Part shown: one piece after another, positions 25,586 through 38,252 of the stretch | Layout: each line of letters opens with the position of its first letter | Position numbering within the stretch: the stretch's first letter is position 1 | Assembly (NCBI GenBank): GCA_036523395.1 | Contig: DATDEH010000060.1 | Span: 1-62,530, forward strand | Direction of reading: 5' to 3' | Source: Candidatus Limnocylindria bacterium | GTDB lineage: Bacteria; Chloroflexota; Limnocylindria; P2-11E | DNA length: 62,530 bases | The notes under the pieces: generated by a model | What the model saw: only the letters and a program-made list of their open reading frames with translations | Told to the model about the DNA's origin: nothing | Databases searched by the model: none | Position numbers and translations under genes: made by a program

Positions 25586-26866
25586 TTAGCTCGACTCGTC
25601 CGCGACCGCGCTCAACAGATGGCCCATCTTGTCGCGCTTGGTGTTGAGGTATGCGCGGTTCGTCGCGTTGGCCTTGATCTCGATCGGGATGCGCTCGACG
25701 ATCTCGAAGCCGTAGAGGGACACGCCGGCCTTCTGCGGATTGTTCGTGAGGATGCGCGCGCGGCGCACGCCGAGGTCCATCAGGATCTGCACGCCGATCC
25801 CGTACTCGCGGTTGTCGGCCTTGAACCCGAGACGCTCGTTCGCCTCGACCGTGTCCAGACCCTGATCCTGTAGCGCGTAGGCGCGCAGCTTGTTCATGAG
25901 GCCGATGCCGCGTCCCTCCTGTCGCAGGTAGAGGAACACGCCGCGCCCCTCCTCCGCGATGCGCGCCAGCGCGGCGTCCATCTGCGCGCCGCAGTCGCAG
26001 CGCTGCGAACCGAGGAGATCGCCGGTGAGGCATTCGGAGTGCACGCGTACGAGCACCGGCATGCCATCGGCGACGTCACCCATCGTCAGCGCGACGTGCT
26101 CGGCTTCGGTGTTGCCGAAGCGCGCCTTAAAGCCGTGGACGGTGAACTCGCCGTACTTCGTCGGTAGCTTCGCGGAAGCGACGCGCTCGACCATCTGCTC
26201 GCGTGCCATGCGATACGCGATGAGCTCTTTGACCGTGATCATCTTCAGTCCGTGGCGCTTCGCGAACCGCTTCAGCTCCGGGAGGCGCGACATCGACCCG
26301 TCCGGGTTGGTGATCTCGCAGATCACGCCCACGGGCTGCAGCCCCGCGAGCCGGCAGAGGTCGACGGCGGCCTCCGTCTGGCCGGCACGCACGAGCACGC
26401 CGCCATCGCGCGCCCGCAAGGGGAACATGTGTCCGGGCTTCACAAGGTCCTTCGCCGTCGCGTTGGGGTCGGCGAGGACCCGGATCGTGCGGGCGCGGTC
26501 GGCCGCGCTGATGCCTGTCGTGATGCCGTCGCGTGCATCGACGGTCACGCTGAACGCGGTGCCCAGTCGGGCCTCGTTCCGCTGCACCATCTGCGGCAAC
26601 TCGAGCTGCTCGAGCCGCTCGCCCGTCATCGGCACGCAGATGACGCCGCTCGCGTACTTCCGGATGAACGCGACCGCCTCGGGCGTGCACGCCTCGGCCG
26701 CCATCGTGAGGTCGCCCTCGTTCTCGCGGTCTTCGTCGTCGACGACGATGATCATCCGGCCCGCGGTGATCTCCGCGATGGCTTCGTTGACGGTGCCGAA
26801 CGGCGGCTCGGGCGAGACGACGCGCGGATGGGGCGTGATCTTCTTGGAAGCGCGAGCCGTCTTCAT
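25586..26866 (-). CDS. ribBA: Bifunctional DHBP synthase / GTP cyclohydrolase II
   Basis: 426 residues. The N-terminal RibB domain has [16 protein letters not shown] and [31 protein letters not shown]. The C-terminal RibA domain has the zinc motif [36 protein letters not shown] and [16 protein letters not shown]. It supplies both branches of riboflavin synthesis: DHBP from ribulose-5-phosphate and the pyrimidine from GTP. A TAAACT lies in the 14-bp gap after ribE, 6 nt before the ATG, so an internal promoter is possible. Confidence 0.96.
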
Positions 26867-31327: not shown

Positions 31328-32080
31328 GTGACAGCCCTTCGCGTCACCGCACTCATCGCTTCCATCTTGTGTCTGGCGATCCTCGTGACTCCCGCCGTGG
31401 CATCCGGTCCCGTCAATGCATCGGCAGCCGCGCCGGCCTCGGACGCTCCCACCGTTACCGCCGTGGGTATCGGCATCGCCCAGTCGCAGGCCGATCCTCT
31501 CGCGGTCGCACAGACGCTGTACGTCAACATTCAGACGACCGTGGATGGAGCGAGCGTGCAAGCCGCCGCTGACGACATGGTCGCGCGGCTCGACACGATC
31601 AAGGGTGCGCTCGTCAAGGTGGGCGTCCCGGCCGATGGCATCCGCATGGCCGGGTTCAATGTCAGCCCGATGTTCGCCGGAAAGCCCGCACCATTCCCCG
31701 CGGAGAAGAGTCCGACGCAGCCGCAGGTCAGCGCGCTCATGCTGAGCGGCAACCTCACGGCGGACGTTCCCTCGATCCGCCTGCTCGTGGCCGCGATGAA
31801 CGCGGCGACGGCGAACGGCGCCACCAGCGTCAACGCCAATGGGGGCAAAGGCGGCGCTCCCTTTGGGAGCGTGCAGCCGTCAGCGGGCGAGCTCGCAAAG
31901 GCGACCGACGCGGCCGTGGCCAACGCGCGCACGAACGCTGAGGCCCTCGCTGCTGCGAGCGGCAGGCAGCTCGGCGGGATCCGTTCGGTCTCCTCGTCGC
32001 AGCTGCCGATGCTGGGGTGCTGTCCACCGAACTCCGGGTGGACCGTCCAGGTCATGGTGACCTTCGACTTCGCACCGTAG
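31328..32080 (+). CDS. SIMPL domain secreted protein
   Basis: 250 residues. Signal peptide at 1-26 (TALRVTALIASILCLAILVTPAVASG). A SIMPL (DUF541) domain follows: VTAVGIGIAQSQADPLAVAQTLYVNIQT, LDTIKGALVKVGVPADGIRMAGFNVSPMF, then ATDAAVANARTNAEALAAASGRQLGGIRSVSSS. SIMPL proteins are periplasmic or surface proteins of unclear function. The GTG at 31328 is set by the AGGAGG in front; it is one of the few genes here with a textbook Shine-Dalgarno. Confidence 0.9.
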   Translation: MTALRVTALIASILCLAILVTPAVASGPVNASAAAPASDAPTVTAVGIGIAQSQADPLAVAQTLYVNIQTTVDGASVQAAADDMVARLDTIKGALVKVGVPADGIRMAGFNVSPMFAGKPAPFPAEKSPTQPQVSALMLSGNLTADVPSIRLLVAAMNAATANGATSVNANGGKGGAPFGSVQPSAGELAKATDAAVANARTNAEALAAASGRQLGGIRSVSSSQLPMLGCCPPNSGWTVQVMVTFDFAP

Positions 32081-32094
32081 ACGGCCCTGCCCAA

Positions 32095-32129
32095 TTGCAT
32101 AAATATGCGGCCGACCGCATAATATGCGG
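32095..32129 (+). promoter_or_regulatory. argC promoter with two ArgR-box-like palindromes
   Basis: TTGCAT (32095-32100), 17 bp, CATAAT (32118-32123), then 8 nt to the argC ATG. Each hexamer lies inside a palindrome: GCATA-AA-TATGC (32097-32108) and CCGCATA-A-TATGCGG (32115-32129), with centres about 20 bp apart. Paired boxes about two helical turns apart are how ArgR hexamers bind elsewhere. The operon encodes ArgR. Confidence 0.65.
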
Positions 32130-32131
32130 CG

Positions 32132-33154
32132 ATGCCGGTGAAGGTCGCGATCGTCGGGGCGACGGGCTACGCGGGTGGGGAGCTGGCGCGGTTGCTGCTG
32201 CGCCACCCCGAGGCGCGGCTCGTCGCCGCCGTCGCCCGCGGCCGCCAGGGCGAGGCGCTGCGTGACGTCCAGCCGCACCTCCACGCCGCGCCGTCGTCGC
32301 TGGTCGTCGGTGGCGATCCCGGCGACGCCGAGGTCGTCTTCACAGCGCTGCCGGCGGGAGAGGCTGCGAAGCTCGCGCCGGCGTGGCTGGCGGAAGGCCG
32401 CGCGGTCATCGACATCGGTAGCGACTTCCGGCTCCGCGATCCCAAGGACTACGAGCGCTGGTACTCGTACACGCATCCCGCGCCGGAGCTGCTGAAGGAA
32501 GCGGTCTACGGACTCACGGAGCTGACCCGCAGCCGCCTCCGCGCTGCGCGCGTCGTCGCGAATCCCGGCTGCTATCCCACCGCAACGCTCCTGGCGCTGC
32601 TTCCGGCTCTCAAGGCGGATCTCGTCGAGGACGACCTCGTCGTCGATGCGAAGTCGGGCGTGTCCGGAGCCGGCCACAACGTCGACGATGCCTATCTCTT
32701 CGGAACGATCGACGAGAGCGTGCGGCCGTACGGCGTGCCGAAGCATCGGCACACACCCGAGATCGCGCAAGAGGTGCGCGGAATGTCGGGACGGGCGCCG
32801 CGCCTCACCTTCACGCCGCACCTCATCCCGATGACGCGTGGCCTCATCGCCACCTGCTACGCGACCCTGCGTGACGGCGTCGACGCGGCACGCGTCGCCG
32901 ACGCGTATGCGACGGCGTACGCGGAGGAGCCATTCGTACGCGTCACGAGCTCGTACCCGGCGACGAAGGCAACGCTCGGGAGCAACTGGTGTCTGGTGCA
33001 CGCCGTCGTGGACGCGCCGAACCGGCGTCTCGTCGCGTTCGGCGCGCTCGACAACCTCGTGAAGGGCGCCGCCGGATCGGCGATCCAGAACCTGAACGCG
33101 ATGCGCGGTTTTCCCGAGACGATGGGTCTCGACGCGCTGCCGCTCTGGCCATGA
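32132..33154 (+). CDS. argC: N-acetyl-gamma-glutamyl-phosphate reductase
   Basis: 340 residues. It reduces N-acetylglutamyl phosphate to the semialdehyde with NADPH. Rossmann motif VGATGYAGGELARLLLRHPEA at the start; catalytic cysteine in VANPGCYPTATLLALLP; C-terminal HRHTPEI and FTPHLIPMTRGL. First gene of a seven-gene arginine operon. Its ATG lies 8 nt after the -10, so the mRNA probably has no or almost no leader, and ArgR binding would block initiation directly. Confidence 0.96.
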   Translation: MPVKVAIVGATGYAGGELARLLLRHPEARLVAAVARGRQGEALRDVQPHLHAAPSSLVVGGDPGDAEVVFTALPAGEAAKLAPAWLAEGRAVIDIGSDFRLRDPKDYERWYSYTHPAPELLKEAVYGLTELTRSRLRAARVVANPGCYPTATLLALLPALKADLVEDDLVVDAKSGVSGAGHNVDDAYLFGTIDESVRPYGVPKHRHTPEIAQEVRGMSGRAPRLTFTPHLIPMTRGLIATCYATLRDGVDAARVADAYATAYAEEPFVRVTSSYPATKATLGSNWCLVHAVVDAPNRRLVAFGALDNLVKGAAGSAIQNLNAMRGFPETMGLDALPLWP

Positions 33155-34341
33155 CCGACGGTCGCGGCGTCACATTCGCGCACGGCTTCCGCGCCGGAGC
33201 GGCGAAAGCGGGCGTGAAGCACGGACGGCCGGAGCGCCTGGACGTGGCGCTCATCGTGTCGGAGCGGCCGTGCGTCGCAGCGGCGGTCTTCACCACGAAC
33301 CAGGTCATCGCCGCCCCCTGCGTCGTGACTCGCCGCCACGTCGAGCGTGGGCCACTGCGCGCCATCGTCGTGAACTCAGGCAACGCGAACGCGTGCACGG
33401 GGGAGCAGGGCGAGCGCGATGCGATCGCGATGGCGGAAGCCGCGGCGGCCGTCGTGGGCTGCTCCCCGTACGAGATCGCGGTCGCGAGCACCGGCGTGAT
33501 CGGCTTCAAGCTGCCGGTCGAGCGGATCGCTGCGGTGCTTCCGGGCATCGAGCTCACTGAGGTCGGCTGGGATGACACCTCGCGCGCGATGATGACGACG
33601 GACACGCGCCCCAAGGTGACCGAGCGCGAGCTGAATCTCACGGCGGGCACGGTGCGCATCGGTGGGGTCGCGAAGGGCGCGGGGATGATCCATCCGAACA
33701 TGGCCACGCTTCTCGCGTTCATCACGACGGATGCGGTCGTCGAGGCCAGCGACCTGCGGCGCATCGTCTCGCGCGCAGCGGACACGACGTTCAACGCGAT
33801 CTCGGTCGATGGGGACACGAGCACCAACGACACCTTGCTCGTCCTGGCGAACGGCGCCTCAGGCGTCACGCCGAGGGGCGCGGACCTCGCGACGTTCGAG
33901 GAGGGCGTTCGCACCGTATGTGCGGATCTCGCGCGAATGATCGTCGCCGACGGCGAGGGCGCCACGAAGGTGTTCGAGGTCCGCGTTCGCGGAGCCGCTT
34001 CAGCAGCCGACGCGCGCCTCGCGGCTCGGACGATCACCAACTCGAACCTCGTGCGCACCGCAATCCACGGCGGCGACCCCAACTGGGGTCGGATACTGGC
34101 TGCCGCGGGCCGCTCCGGCGCGCGAGTGGACGACCGCAAGGCGAGCGTGCGCATCGGCGATCTCTTCGTCTATCGGAGTGGCGCGCCGCTCGTCGTCGCC
34201 GATGCCGACGTGCGTGCATTGTTCGCGGCAGACGCGATCGAGATCGAGGTGACGCTCGGTCTCGGCGAAGGTCAGGCCGTGGCGTGGGGCTGCGACCTGT
34301 CGGCGGAATACGTGCGCATCAACGCCGAGTACATGACGTGA
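33151..34341 (+). CDS. argJ: Glutamate N-acetyltransferase (ornithine acetyltransferase)
   Basis: 396 residues. The self-cleavage site is NMATLLAF, with Thr186 as the expected N-terminal nucleophile of the beta chain. Other blocks: FTTNQVIAAPC, VNSGNANACTG, ASTGVIG, GVAKGAGMIHP and SNLVRTAIHGGDPNWGRI. It recycles the acetyl group from N-acetylornithine to glutamate, making the pathway cyclic. The ATG at 33151 overlaps the argC TGA (ATGA); the frame runs further upstream only by chance. Confidence 0.96.
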   Translation: MTDGRGVTFAHGFRAGAAKAGVKHGRPERLDVALIVSERPCVAAAVFTTNQVIAAPCVVTRRHVERGPLRAIVVNSGNANACTGEQGERDAIAMAEAAAAVVGCSPYEIAVASTGVIGFKLPVERIAAVLPGIELTEVGWDDTSRAMMTTDTRPKVTERELNLTAGTVRIGGVAKGAGMIHPNMATLLAFITTDAVVEASDLRRIVSRAADTTFNAISVDGDTSTNDTLLVLANGASGVTPRGADLATFEEGVRTVCADLARMIVADGEGATKVFEVRVRGAASAADARLAARTITNSNLVRTAIHGGDPNWGRILAAAGRSGARVDDRKASVRIGDLFVYRSGAPLVVADADVRALFAADAIEIEVTLGLGEGQAVAWGCDLSAEYVRINAEYMT

Positions 34342-35111
34342 GCGACGTCCTGGTGCTCAAGATCGGTGGCTCGATCATGGGTGATGAGGCCGCGGCCCTC
34401 GATGTCGTGGCGGCGCTCAACGACGCGGGTCATTCGCTCGTCGTCGTGCACGGTGGTGGTCCGCTCGCGACGGAATGGTCGGGACGGCTCGGTCTGGAGA
34501 CTCGTTTCGTCCGCGGGCTGCGCGTCACCGACGCCGCGACACGCGACGTCGCTCTGGCCACCATGGCCGGACTCGCCAACTCGCGCGTCGTGGCGGCGCT
34601 GATCGCGCGCGAGGTGCCCGCGGTCGGACTGTCGGGGATCGACGGCGGAATGCTGCGCGCGGAGCGCGAGGACGCGGAGCTTGGTCTCGTCGGCCGGGTG
34701 AGCCTCGTCGACAGCGCGCTGCTCGAAGAGTTGCTCGCGGCGGGACGTGTGCCGGTCGTGGCGCCCGCGGCGCTGGATAAGAAGGACGGCGAGATCCTCA
34801 ACGTGAACGGTGACGGCGTGGCTGGCGCGCTCGCCGCGAGCCTGGGCGCGCGGCTGCTGGTGTTCGTGACCGACGTCCCGGGTGTGCGCTCGAAGGATGG
34901 CAAGGTCATCACGTCGCTCGATGCCGCGCGCGCGAAGGCGCTCGTCGACGACGGCACGATCGAGGGCGGCATGGTGCCCAAGGTCGAGGCCTGCCTGATC
35001 GCCGCGAGCGCCGGGTGCCGGTGCGCGATCGTCGCAGCGCGCGGCGCCGACGCGATCGAGCGACTGCTCACCGGCGAGCAGGTTGGCACCGTCTTCGAGG
35101 CCGCGGCATGA
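34338..35111 (+). CDS. argB: Acetylglutamate kinase
   Basis: 257 residues of the amino-acid kinase fold: LVLKIGGS at the N-terminus, VVVHGGGP, RFVRGLRVTDAATRDV, NVNGDGVAGALAASL and EGGMVPKVEACL. The protein begins directly at the first strand, without the N-terminal helix that mediates hexamer formation and arginine inhibition in known arginine-sensitive kinases. Feedback by arginine may therefore act elsewhere. The GTG start overlaps the argJ TGA (GTGA). Confidence 0.94.
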   Translation: MSDVLVLKIGGSIMGDEAAALDVVAALNDAGHSLVVVHGGGPLATEWSGRLGLETRFVRGLRVTDAATRDVALATMAGLANSRVVAALIAREVPAVGLSGIDGGMLRAEREDAELGLVGRVSLVDSALLEELLAAGRVPVVAPAALDKKDGEILNVNGDGVAGALAASLGARLLVFVTDVPGVRSKDGKVITSLDAARAKALVDDGTIEGGMVPKVEACLIAASAGCRCAIVAARGADAIERLLTGEQVGTVFEAAA

Positions 35112-35590
35112 GAGAGGCGCTCACGCGCAAGCATCACCGGCAGCAGGCACTGGTGCGCCTGGTCCGTCAGGGGCGCCTATCGACGCAGGAAGAGCTCGTG
35201 CGCGCGCTCAAGAACGCAGGGTTCCCGTCGACGCAGGCAACGGTGTCGCGCGACATCGTCGAGCTCGGCCTGGTGAAGGTCGCGCGCGATGGGGCACACA
35301 TCTACGCGCCGCCCTCCGTCGTGAGCCAGGGCGGCACGGATCGCCTGCGCCGTTTCAGCGAGGACTATCCGGTCGAGGCGGCGGTCGCGGCGAACATGGT
35401 CGTCCTGCGCTCCTCGCCGGGCACAGCGAACGCGCTCGGCGCGGCGCTCGACGCGTCGGGGCTCACCGAGATCCTCGGTACGCTCGCTGGCGACGACACC
35501 GTCTTCGTCGCGACCTCGACCGAGCGGCATGCGCGTTCCCTGCTCACGCGTCTCACCGCGTTCGGCATCGCCCGAAGGGAGAAGTCATGA
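35108..35590 (+). CDS. argR: Arginine repressor ArgR
   Basis: 160 residues. The N-terminal winged helix has RQQALVRLVRQGRLSTQEELVRALKNAGFPSTQATVSRDIVELGLVKV (recognition helix in QATVSRDI). The C-terminal hexamerisation and arginine-binding domain ends with LGTLAGDDTVFVATSTERHARSLLTRL, containing the GDDT motif. As gene four of its own target operon it would autoregulate through the palindromes at 32095-32129. ATG overlaps the argB TGA. Confidence 0.95.
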   Translation: MREALTRKHHRQQALVRLVRQGRLSTQEELVRALKNAGFPSTQATVSRDIVELGLVKVARDGAHIYAPPSVVSQGGTDRLRRFSEDYPVEAAVAANMVVLRSSPGTANALGAALDASGLTEILGTLAGDDTVFVATSTERHARSLLTRLTAFGIARREKS

Positions 35591-36879
35591 CCGCGCCGGA
35601 GCACAGGGGGGAGACCTGCGTCCTCGCGTACTCAGGCGGCCTCGACACGAGCGTCGCGGTGGCGTGGCTGCGCGAGACGCACGGCTTCGAGGTCGTGACG
35701 TGCACCGGCGACCTCGGCTCGGTCCGCGACCTCGAGCAGATCCAGAAGAAGGCGATCGCGAGCGGCGCGCGCAAGGCGATCGTGCAGGACGCGCGCGACA
35801 TCTTCGTGCGCTTCTTCGTGTGGCCGGCGCTGCAGGCCGGCGCGCTGTATGAGGAACGCTATCCGCTTGCGACCGCACTGGGTCGGCCGCTGCTGGCGAA
35901 GCTGCTCGTCGACGCGGCGCGTGAGGAGAACGCTCGCTTCGTCGCGCACGGGTGCACCGGCAAGGGGAACGACCAGGTGCGCTTCGACCTCGCCGTCGGA
36001 GCGCTTGCCCCGGACCTCAAGGTGATCGCGCCGATGCGAGGCGGTATGAACATGACACGCGACGAGGAGATCGAATACGCGCGCGAGCGCGGCATTCCTG
36101 TTGAGGCAACCAAGCAGAGCCCGTATAGCGTCGATGAGAACCTGTGGGGTCGCTCGATCGAGGCCGGAGTTCTCGAAGATCCGTGGGGCGCGCCGCCGCG
36201 CGACGTGTTCCAGTGGACCGTCGATGCCGACGAGGCGCCCGCGAAGCCGCGCGAGATCGTGATCGGATTCCGCGAGGGGCTGCCGATCAGCCTCGACGGC
36301 GACGAGACCCTGGGCATCGAGCTCGTCGAGCGTTTGAACAAGCTCGGTGGCAAGTACGGGGTGGGCCGCATCGACCAGATCGAGAACCGGCTCGTGGGCA
36401 TCAAGTCGCGTGAGATCTACGAGGCGCCGGCGGCCGTCATCCTCCATCTTGCGCACCGCGCGCTCGAGGACATGGTGCTGACCAAAGAGACGCTGCGCTT
36501 CAAGGCGCAGGTCGCGCAGGAGTACGCCGACCTCGTCTACAACGGCCTGTGGTTCACGGCACATCATCAAGACCTCGCGGCGTACGTACGCAGCACGCAG
36601 CGCTTCGTGAGTGGCGAGATCCGCGTGCGCCTCCATCGCGGGGCGGCGACGATCGCCGGCCGCCGCTCACCGCACTCCCTCTATTCGACAGCGCTCGCGA
36701 CGTATGGCAAGGGCGACCAGTTCGACCACAAGGCGTCCGAGGGCTTCATCACCGTCTTCGGTCTGCCGCTCCGCACGCAGGCGCGGATCCAGTCGCTCTG
36801 GGGTGAGGGGAGCGAGGCGATGCTCGATGTGCCGAAGAAGGCGCTCGAAGCCCCGCAGGCGAAGAAGAAGACCAGGTGA
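35587..36879 (+). CDS. argG: Argininosuccinate synthase
   Basis: 430 residues. The PP-loop LAYSGGLDTSVAVAWL is at the N-terminus; HGCTGKGNDQVRFD and the SVDENLWGRSIEAGVLEDP block are standard. Citrulline plus aspartate plus ATP gives argininosuccinate. The ATG at 35587 overlaps the argR TGA. The C-terminal ~25 residues are Lys-rich and probably disordered. Confidence 0.96.
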   Translation: MTAPEHRGETCVLAYSGGLDTSVAVAWLRETHGFEVVTCTGDLGSVRDLEQIQKKAIASGARKAIVQDARDIFVRFFVWPALQAGALYEERYPLATALGRPLLAKLLVDAAREENARFVAHGCTGKGNDQVRFDLAVGALAPDLKVIAPMRGGMNMTRDEEIEYARERGIPVEATKQSPYSVDENLWGRSIEAGVLEDPWGAPPRDVFQWTVDADEAPAKPREIVIGFREGLPISLDGDETLGIELVERLNKLGGKYGVGRIDQIENRLVGIKSREIYEAPAAVILHLAHRALEDMVLTKETLRFKAQVAQEYADLVYNGLWFTAHHQDLAAYVRSTQRFVSGEIRVRLHRGAATIAGRRSPHSLYSTALATYGKGDQFDHKASEGFITVFGLPLRTQARIQSLWGEGSEAMLDVPKKALEAPQAKKKTR

Positions 36880-38252
36880 GCAAAGACCTGTGGAAGGGAC
36901 GCTTCGAGGGCGCGCTCGATCCGAAGGTGCGCGACTTCACCGCGTCGCTCGAGCTCGATAAGCGTCTCGCGTCGCACGACGTGCGTGGCAGCATCGCGCA
37001 CGCACGGATGCTCGGCCGCCAGAACGTGATCTCAAAGGACGAGGCGGCCACGCTCGTGCGGGAGCTGGAGCGCATCGCAGGGGAGCTCAAGAATGGCACG
37101 TTCGCGTGGCCGGCCGACGCTGAGGACGTGCACTCCGCGGTCGAGCGCGTGTTGACGGAGCGCGCGGGAGCCGTCGGCGGGAAGCTCCACACCGGCCGGA
37201 GTCGCAACGATCAGATCGCGCTGGACCTTCGTCTGCTCGTCGTCGAGCTTCTCGATGGTCTCGATGCCGCACTGGTGTCGTTCGCGCGGGTCCTGGTCGA
37301 GCGGGCGTCGGACGAGTCGGACACCGTGATGCCCGGCTACACACACCTGCAACGCGCGCAGCCGGTGTCGCTCGCGCATCACCTGCTCGCACATGTCGAA
37401 GCGCTACGACGCGACCGGATGCGGGTGAGCGAGGCTCGCGAGCGTGCGGCGACGTCGCCCCTCGGTGCCGGCGCGCTGGCCGGGGTGCCCTACGCGATCG
37501 ATCCGCAGGCGGTCGCGCGCGAGATGGGTCTCGCGCGGACGTTCCGCAACAGCATCGATGCCGTGGCGGACCGCGACTTCGTCGCCGACTTCACGTACGT
37601 GTGCGCGCTTGTTGCCGTGCACGCATCACGCTTCGCCGAGGAGCTCGTCCTGTGGACCACCGCCGAGTTCGGCTTCGCCGAGTTCTCGGATCGGCACGCG
37701 ACCGGGTCGAGCATCATGCCGCAGAAGAAGAACCCGGACGTCGCGGAGCTCGTGCGCGGCCGTGCGGGTCGCATCATCGGCGACCTCGTCGCGGTGCTCA
37801 CCACGCTCAAGGGACTGCCTCTCGCGTACGACGGCGACCTGCAGGAGCAGCGCGTTCCCCTGTACGACGCGGCCGCGGTGATCCCGGCCCTCGAGACGCT
37901 TGCGCTCGTCGTGGGCGGCGTGCGCTTCGACCGCGAGGCGATGCGCCGCGCGACCGAGCGCGGAATGCTGACAGCGACGGATCTCGCCGACCACCTCGCG
38001 CGCCGCGGTGTGCCATTCCGCGAGGCGCACGAGATCGTCGGTCGCCTCGTGCGCGAACGACTCGCGCAAAAGAAGGACCTGGCCGACGTCACGCTCGGCG
38101 AGCTGCGCGCCGTCGATCCGCGTTTCGGCGAGAGCGCGGTCGACGAGGTCGACGTGTCGCGCTCGCTCGCATCGCGGTCGTCGCCCGGCGGAACCGCGCC
38201 CGAGCGCGTGCGAGCGGCGATCGAGGAAGCCCGCACCGCGCTCCTCGCATGA
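36876..38252 (+). CDS. argH: Argininosuccinate lyase
   Basis: 458 residues of the fumarase/aspartase superfamily. Signature GSSIMPQKKNPDVAELVRGRAGR; also HTGRSRNDQIALDLRL and GYTHLQRAQPVSLAHHLLAH. It splits argininosuccinate to arginine and fumarate. The GTG start overlaps the argG TGA, and its stop overlaps the ATG of the acetyltransferase. Confidence 0.96.
   Translation: MSKDLWKGRFEGALDPKVRDFTASLELDKRLASHDVRGSIAHARMLGRQNVISKDEAATLVRELERIAGELKNGTFAWPADAEDVHSAVERVLTERAGAVGGKLHTGRSRNDQIALDLRLLVVELLDGLDAALVSFARVLVERASDESDTVMPGYTHLQRAQPVSLAHHLLAHVEALRRDRMRVSEARERAATSPLGAGALAGVPYAIDPQAVAREMGLARTFRNSIDAVADRDFVADFTYVCALVAVHASRFAEELVLWTTAEFGFAEFSDRHATGSSIMPQKKNPDVAELVRGRAGRIIGDLVAVLTTLKGLPLAYDGDLQEQRVPLYDAAAVIPALETLALVVGGVRFDREAMRRATERGMLTATDLADHLARRGVPFREAHEIVGRLVRERLAQKKDLADVTLGELRAVDPRFGESAVDEVDVSRSLASRSSPGGTAPERVRAAIEEARTALLA

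Follow-up and report, generated by a model that had tools for sequence, protein, structure and literature searches.

A probable ArgR operator-promoter upstream of argC

The DNA immediately upstream of argC very probably serves as the ArgR operator-promoter of an argCJBRGH operon with a near-leaderless argC, and a second module of the same kind is situated at carA. By sequence and conservation it is an ordinary, well-conserved ArgR operator over a promoter and not a new switch, though it is joined to the start codon more closely than usual. Conservation of the boxes at argC, their twin at carA and their co-occurrence with ArgR in f4 genomes together point to an ArgR operator laid over the promoter, with argR itself inside the operon that it would repress.

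In the window (the whole 62,530-nt stretch of DNA analysed; all features described here lie on its forward strand), two putative ARG boxes were read from the sequence: box 1 at 32095-32110 (TTGCATAAATATGCGG; TGCAT-4 bp-ATGCG) and box 2 at 32115-32129 (CCGCATAATATGCGG), the latter with a core spacer of 3 bp where 4 bp is canonical. A -35-like TTGCAT (32095-32100) is situated inside box 1, in a position kept in relatives, and a -10-like CATAAT (32118-32123) is situated inside box 2; relatives carry CATAAT, CATACT, TATACT or TATAGT at the equivalent position. Both are imperfect promoter hexamers, separated by 17 nt, with 8 nt between CATAAT and the argC ATG at 32132, which places the predicted transcription start region at 32130-32132, 0-3 nt from the start codon. 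The gene upstream of argC, on the same strand, ends at 32080, ~50 nt before the ATG.

All six members of the operon were backed by family models: argC, encoding N-acetyl-gamma-glutamyl-phosphate reductase (32132-33154; TIGR01850, 395 bits, cut-off 234), argJ (33151-34341; NF003802, 484 bits), argB (34338-35111; TIGR00761, 211 bits), the arginine repressor gene argR (35108-35590), argG, encoding argininosuccinate synthase (35587-36879; NF001770, 550 bits), and argH, encoding argininosuccinate lyase (36876-38252; TIGR00838, 554 bits). Each junction is a 4-nt overlap, ATGA or GTGA (ATGA between argC and argJ and between argB and argR; GTGA between argJ and argB). ArgR possessed both the winged helix-turn-helix DNA-binding domain (PF01316, 63 bits) and the arginine-binding domain (PF02863, 71 bits), each above its Pfam cut-off; it scored 124 bits against TIGR01529, slightly below the cut-off of 130, and matched AhrC/ArgR structures at 1e-22. 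Direct reading thus bore out the preliminary description of TTGCAT-17-CATAAT ending 8 nt before the argC ATG within two palindromes, and the 4-nt overlaps and family models confirmed its placing of argR as the fourth gene of the argC operon. A second ArgC-like protein (G000:C122:85195-86211), with 40% identity to the ArgC of the window, was found in nearly all f1 genomes and possibly belongs to another pathway.

Rarity, conservation and identity of the boxes

The pattern GCATAN{0,4}TATGC occurs at two places in the window, both at the argC promoter (shuffled windows: mean 0.05, with none of 100 reaching two), and at just one further place in the whole 3.0 Mb genome assembly (128 contigs). Genome-wide, a reversed-pattern control likewise occurs at three places, so rarity was dropped as a stand-alone argument and conservation was used as evidence instead. 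One-box matches with two or three mismatches elsewhere in the genome numbered 16, against 13 in the control, and those inspected (L175, L176 and L178) did not precede arginine genes. In f1 genomes, a degenerate form of the box pattern matched approximately once each, either at argC or at carA.

We aligned 25 argC promoters from f1 and f2 (family/order), the window included, anchored on box 1. For box 1 (TTGCATAAATATGC), mean pairwise identity across 15 nt was 0.83, compared to 0.29 in the 40 nt upstream of it, 0.27 in the 5-nt linker between the boxes, 0.77 in the left part of box 2, which includes the -10, and 0.38 in the right part of box 2. The right arm of box 1, which falls in the spacer between -35 and -10, contained an invariant AT and an invariant C, and invariant bases within a promoter spacer point to a protein other than polymerase. 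The earlier claim of two palindromes therefore stood for box 1 (83% identity against 29% in the flank) and failed to generalize for box 2, whose perfect form at argC was found only in the window species and its closest relative, G002. In these two genomes box 2 is CGCAT-AAT-ATGCG, one base short and with the ATG one base closer; other f1 argC promoters have GCATAAT with a degraded right arm (most of them) or the canonical GCATACTCATGCG, and box 2 with a canonical 4-bp core was found at argC both in genus g8 and in f3 (for example TTGCATACTCATGCG and ATGTATAGTCATGCG). On the simplest reading, box 2 of the window would derive from GCATAATCATGCG by a 1-bp deletion that by chance made it look more symmetrical. 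The perfect symmetry of box 2 is its least conserved part, and the argC operator probably consists of one strong box plus one weak or half box; with its 3-bp core, box 2 of the window may be a poor site for an ordinary ArgR dimer.

The ARG box consensus of Streptomyces is AWTGCATRWWYATGCAWT (PMC5291005). Box 1 agreed with it at 15 of 18 positions, the best match anywhere in the window; box 2 agreed at 8 of 18 in its best register, a count lowered by the 3-bp core, and box 1 was thus the only one of the two to match a known consensus. The half-site had been described as GC-shifted and unusual, a view that does not hold since TGCAT is already published as the Streptomyces ARG box (PMC5291005). 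The box centres, at 32102.5 and 32122, lie 19.5 bp apart at argC in the window, 20-21 bp apart in relatives and 21 bp apart at carA in the same genome, in keeping with a centre spacing of ~20-21 bp. Overlap with a promoter was found at argC and carA in the same genome, and at argH/carA in f4. ARG boxes that overlap the promoter are the usual arrangement, and in the textbook case a single hexamer binds two boxes separated by 2-3 bp (PMC3293853, PMC6245113), so the overlap in itself is nothing out of the ordinary. The boxes described here agree with such published operators in ARG box consensus, in separation and in promoter overlap. None of ten loci compared with Rfam gave a match above the gathering cut-off.

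A probable second operator at carA and co-occurrence with ArgR

carA is an expected target of ArgR. A two-box matrix trained only on 57 argC promoters of the class was applied to regions upstream of carA and scored 36-43 in every f1 and f2 genome scanned, the window's own included, compared to a maximum of 10.7 in 2040 shuffles. Geometry in f1 and f2 was constant (box starts lay 21 bp apart, and the start codon followed the first base of box 2 by 18 nt), and both boxes were whole or nearly whole in all f1 genomes scanned. The putative second operator of the window's own genome (L174; G000:C54:17905-17944) has two canonical boxes before carA, TTGCATCTTTATGCAT-CAGAA-ACGTATAGTTATGCACCAATG, the second of which (ACGTAT-AGTT-ATGCAC) has a 4-bp core; the ATG again follows the start of box 2 by 18 nt.

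Among f4 genomes, tandem boxes on the carA side were found in three that encode ArgR (G036, where the pair is situated between argH and carA, G048 and G050), and all 15 ArgR-less genomes tested were without them; G072, which encodes ArgR, has its box pair at argC. Most f4 genomes (G030, G032, G034, G038 and others), near-complete ones included, had neither argC nor ArgR, which suggests that arginine synthesis has been lost in part of the class. In f3, boxes were absent from carA though ArgR is encoded, and were mostly located at argC; f3 genomes such as G033 and G031 each have two ArgR homologues, one near argC and the other elsewhere. f1 genomes mostly encode a single ArgR, and the window's own genome has a single PF02863 match. 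Three fragmented f1 assemblies (G003, G009 and G024; 71-86% complete) keep boxes at argC or carA but yielded no ArgR, and these absences are probably assembly gaps. The carA pairs in f1 and f2 and the restriction of carA-side boxes in f4 to genomes with ArgR make ArgR by far the most likely reader of the boxes.

Probable leaderless start of argC

The argC start codon follows the first base of box 2 by 15-18 nt in f1 and by 15-19 nt across the class, and in the commonest arrangement, conserved in argC and carA, the end of the -10 lies 8-9 nt from the start codon. A Shine-Dalgarno-like run was not found before the argC ATG, and a -10 situated ~7-9 nt before the start leaves no room for one. In the window, TANNNT hexamers peaked 12 nt before candidate gene starts, with seven at -12; 14 were seen at -11 to -15 where ~1.6 were expected from the background at 20-59 nt (~0.3 per position further out), in a count that used heuristic gene calls and included one intergenic region on both strands. 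Examples of window genes preceded by TANNNT start near 26866, 40360 and 20166. From the conserved distance between -10 and ATG in argC and carA, together with the TANNNT peak, the 5' end of the argC mRNA probably coincides with the AUG or lies no more than about three bases from it, and the peak at -12 makes leaderless initiation look widespread in this genome.

Proposed mechanism and alternative readings

From the sequence, its conservation, the carA twin, the co-occurrence with ArgR in f4 and the operon structure, we infer binding by ArgR, dependence on arginine, repression and the exact 5' end of the message. When arginine is plentiful, an arginine-bound ArgR hexamer would occupy both boxes, which lie two helical turns apart and of which box 2 is the weaker, covering both the -35 and the -10 and excluding RNA polymerase, and argR would be repressed along with the other genes of the operon. 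Once arginine becomes scarce, transcription would begin ~7 nt downstream of CATAAT, either on the argC AUG itself or 1-3 nt ahead of it, and ribosomes would initiate at this AUG on a nearly leaderless message. The second copy of the module would control carA of the same genome.

The conservation might be taken to reflect only a strong sigma-70-type promoter (TTGCAT-17/18-YATARt) in which the palindromes are incidental, and both hexamers are indeed well conserved, most f1 argC promoters having kept the -10 despite degeneration of the box 2 right arm. We consider this highly improbable: the right arm of box 1 is conserved within the spacer, down to invariant bases, the boxes at carA are whole or nearly so throughout the f1 genomes scanned, and across genomes the pattern is found at argC and carA, not at promoters in general. 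The presence of a second ArgR homologue in f3 would allow for boxes read by a regulator other than ArgR, a reading whose likelihood is close to negligible given the mostly single ArgR of f1, encoded here within the argC operon, the identity of the motif with the published Streptomyces ARG box, the nature of its targets (argC, carA and argH/carA), and its absence from carA in f4 genomes that lack ArgR.

A promoter located further upstream could give argC a leadered or readthrough transcript, as the same-strand gene ending at 32080 would permit, but we regard this as unlikely: the ATG has no Shine-Dalgarno-like run before it, the distance from box 2 to the start codon hardly varies at two loci or across the class, and the TANNNT peak in the window is positional. 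An ArgR operator over the promoter of a nearly leaderless argC accordingly stays the preferred reading, in line with what the preliminary description had proposed: comparison of the argC and carA boxes in relatives supports its operator, its suggested search for the same boxes before argC and carA in related genomes was positive (with the carA pair in all f1 and f2 genomes scanned), and the constant spacing from box 2 and the -10 to the start codon, with the TANNNT peak, favours its mRNA start at or beside the AUG.

Short open reading frames in f3 argC leaders

In 15 distinct f3 sequences the putative leaderless start after box 2 opens a short ORF of 20-36 codons (leaders at L030:1352-1449, L059, L060, L064, L067, L070, L071, L075-L078, L083-L085, L089 and L090). 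The TGA of this ORF overlaps the argC GTG (GTGA) inside a conserved GCCNGTGAGCGC in 14 of the 15; in L071 the ORF ends earlier, at a repeat of the same motif. Independent predictions placed one hairpin within the ORF and a second around the start of argC, each with a CCGTGA loop or a close variant of it. Their cells were paired in 89.8% of cases, compared to 23-59% when partners were slid; covariation was modest (3 of 11 pairs changed on both sides). The two-hairpin pattern occurred once per genome, at argC, in 12 of 16 leader-bearing f3 genomes and was absent from the control, and the leader matched no Rfam family. L032:1357-1455 retains the twin hairpin sequences, but here the short ORF continues in frame into argC, with GCG in place of the internal GTG, so that ArgC is extended at its N terminus. 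An arginine-rich attenuator peptide was considered for the short ORF and rejected, its arginine content of ~16% being about that of random GC-rich codons.

Termination-reinitiation would couple the short ORF to argC. With the operator taking up the whole promoter as far as the start codon, transcripts would be forced to begin at the AUG, and we tentatively raise, as a doubtful idea, that the class has met this lock-in in three ways: the start there is that of argC itself (f1), that of an N-terminal extension acquired by ArgC (part of f3), or that of a leaderless ORF of 20-36 codons, which hands ribosomes to argC through a hairpin-held GTGA (the 15 f3 sequences). If true, the hand-over would add a layer of translational control to repression by ArgR.

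Significance and comparison with known systems

The analysis provides a firm candidate ArgR regulon (argCJBRGH plus carA) and an operator matrix for a class of Chloroflexota sampled through MAGs, in which leaderless starts are indicated to be common. With operator, promoter and start codon fixed relative to one another class-wide, the constraint that a leaderless promoter places on downstream content can be traced. A survey of leaderless genes reported an average of 4.7% of genes in four Chloroflexi with signal, and ~20% in Actinobacteria (PMC3160421). Those genes, with TANNNT ~10 bp before the start, share with argC a -10 ~12 nt before the start and no Shine-Dalgarno, and the present window looks richer in them than the published 4.7%. 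Literature on ArgR with a leaderless argC was not found; the only paper to contain all three terms is a study of transcription start sites in E. coli and Klebsiella that treats the topics separately.

In Streptomyces, including argC of S. clavuligerus (PMC3293853, PMC5291005), ARG boxes have the same TGCAT-N4-ATGCA half-sites, two boxes lie ~20 bp apart upstream of argC, and argR is located in the arg cluster. Unlike in Streptomyces, the boxes here abut the start codon, argC has a second box that is either degraded or short of one base, and carA is targeted as well. The carAB P2 and argC operators of E. coli also place two 18-bp boxes over a promoter for one hexamer, and at carAB P2 ArgR and polymerase are mutually exclusive (PMC6245113, PMC3415461); the same arrangement is proposed here. 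E. coli differs in its TGAAT half-sites, its 3-bp separation and the tandem promoters of carAB, whereas here a single module reaches as far as the start codon.
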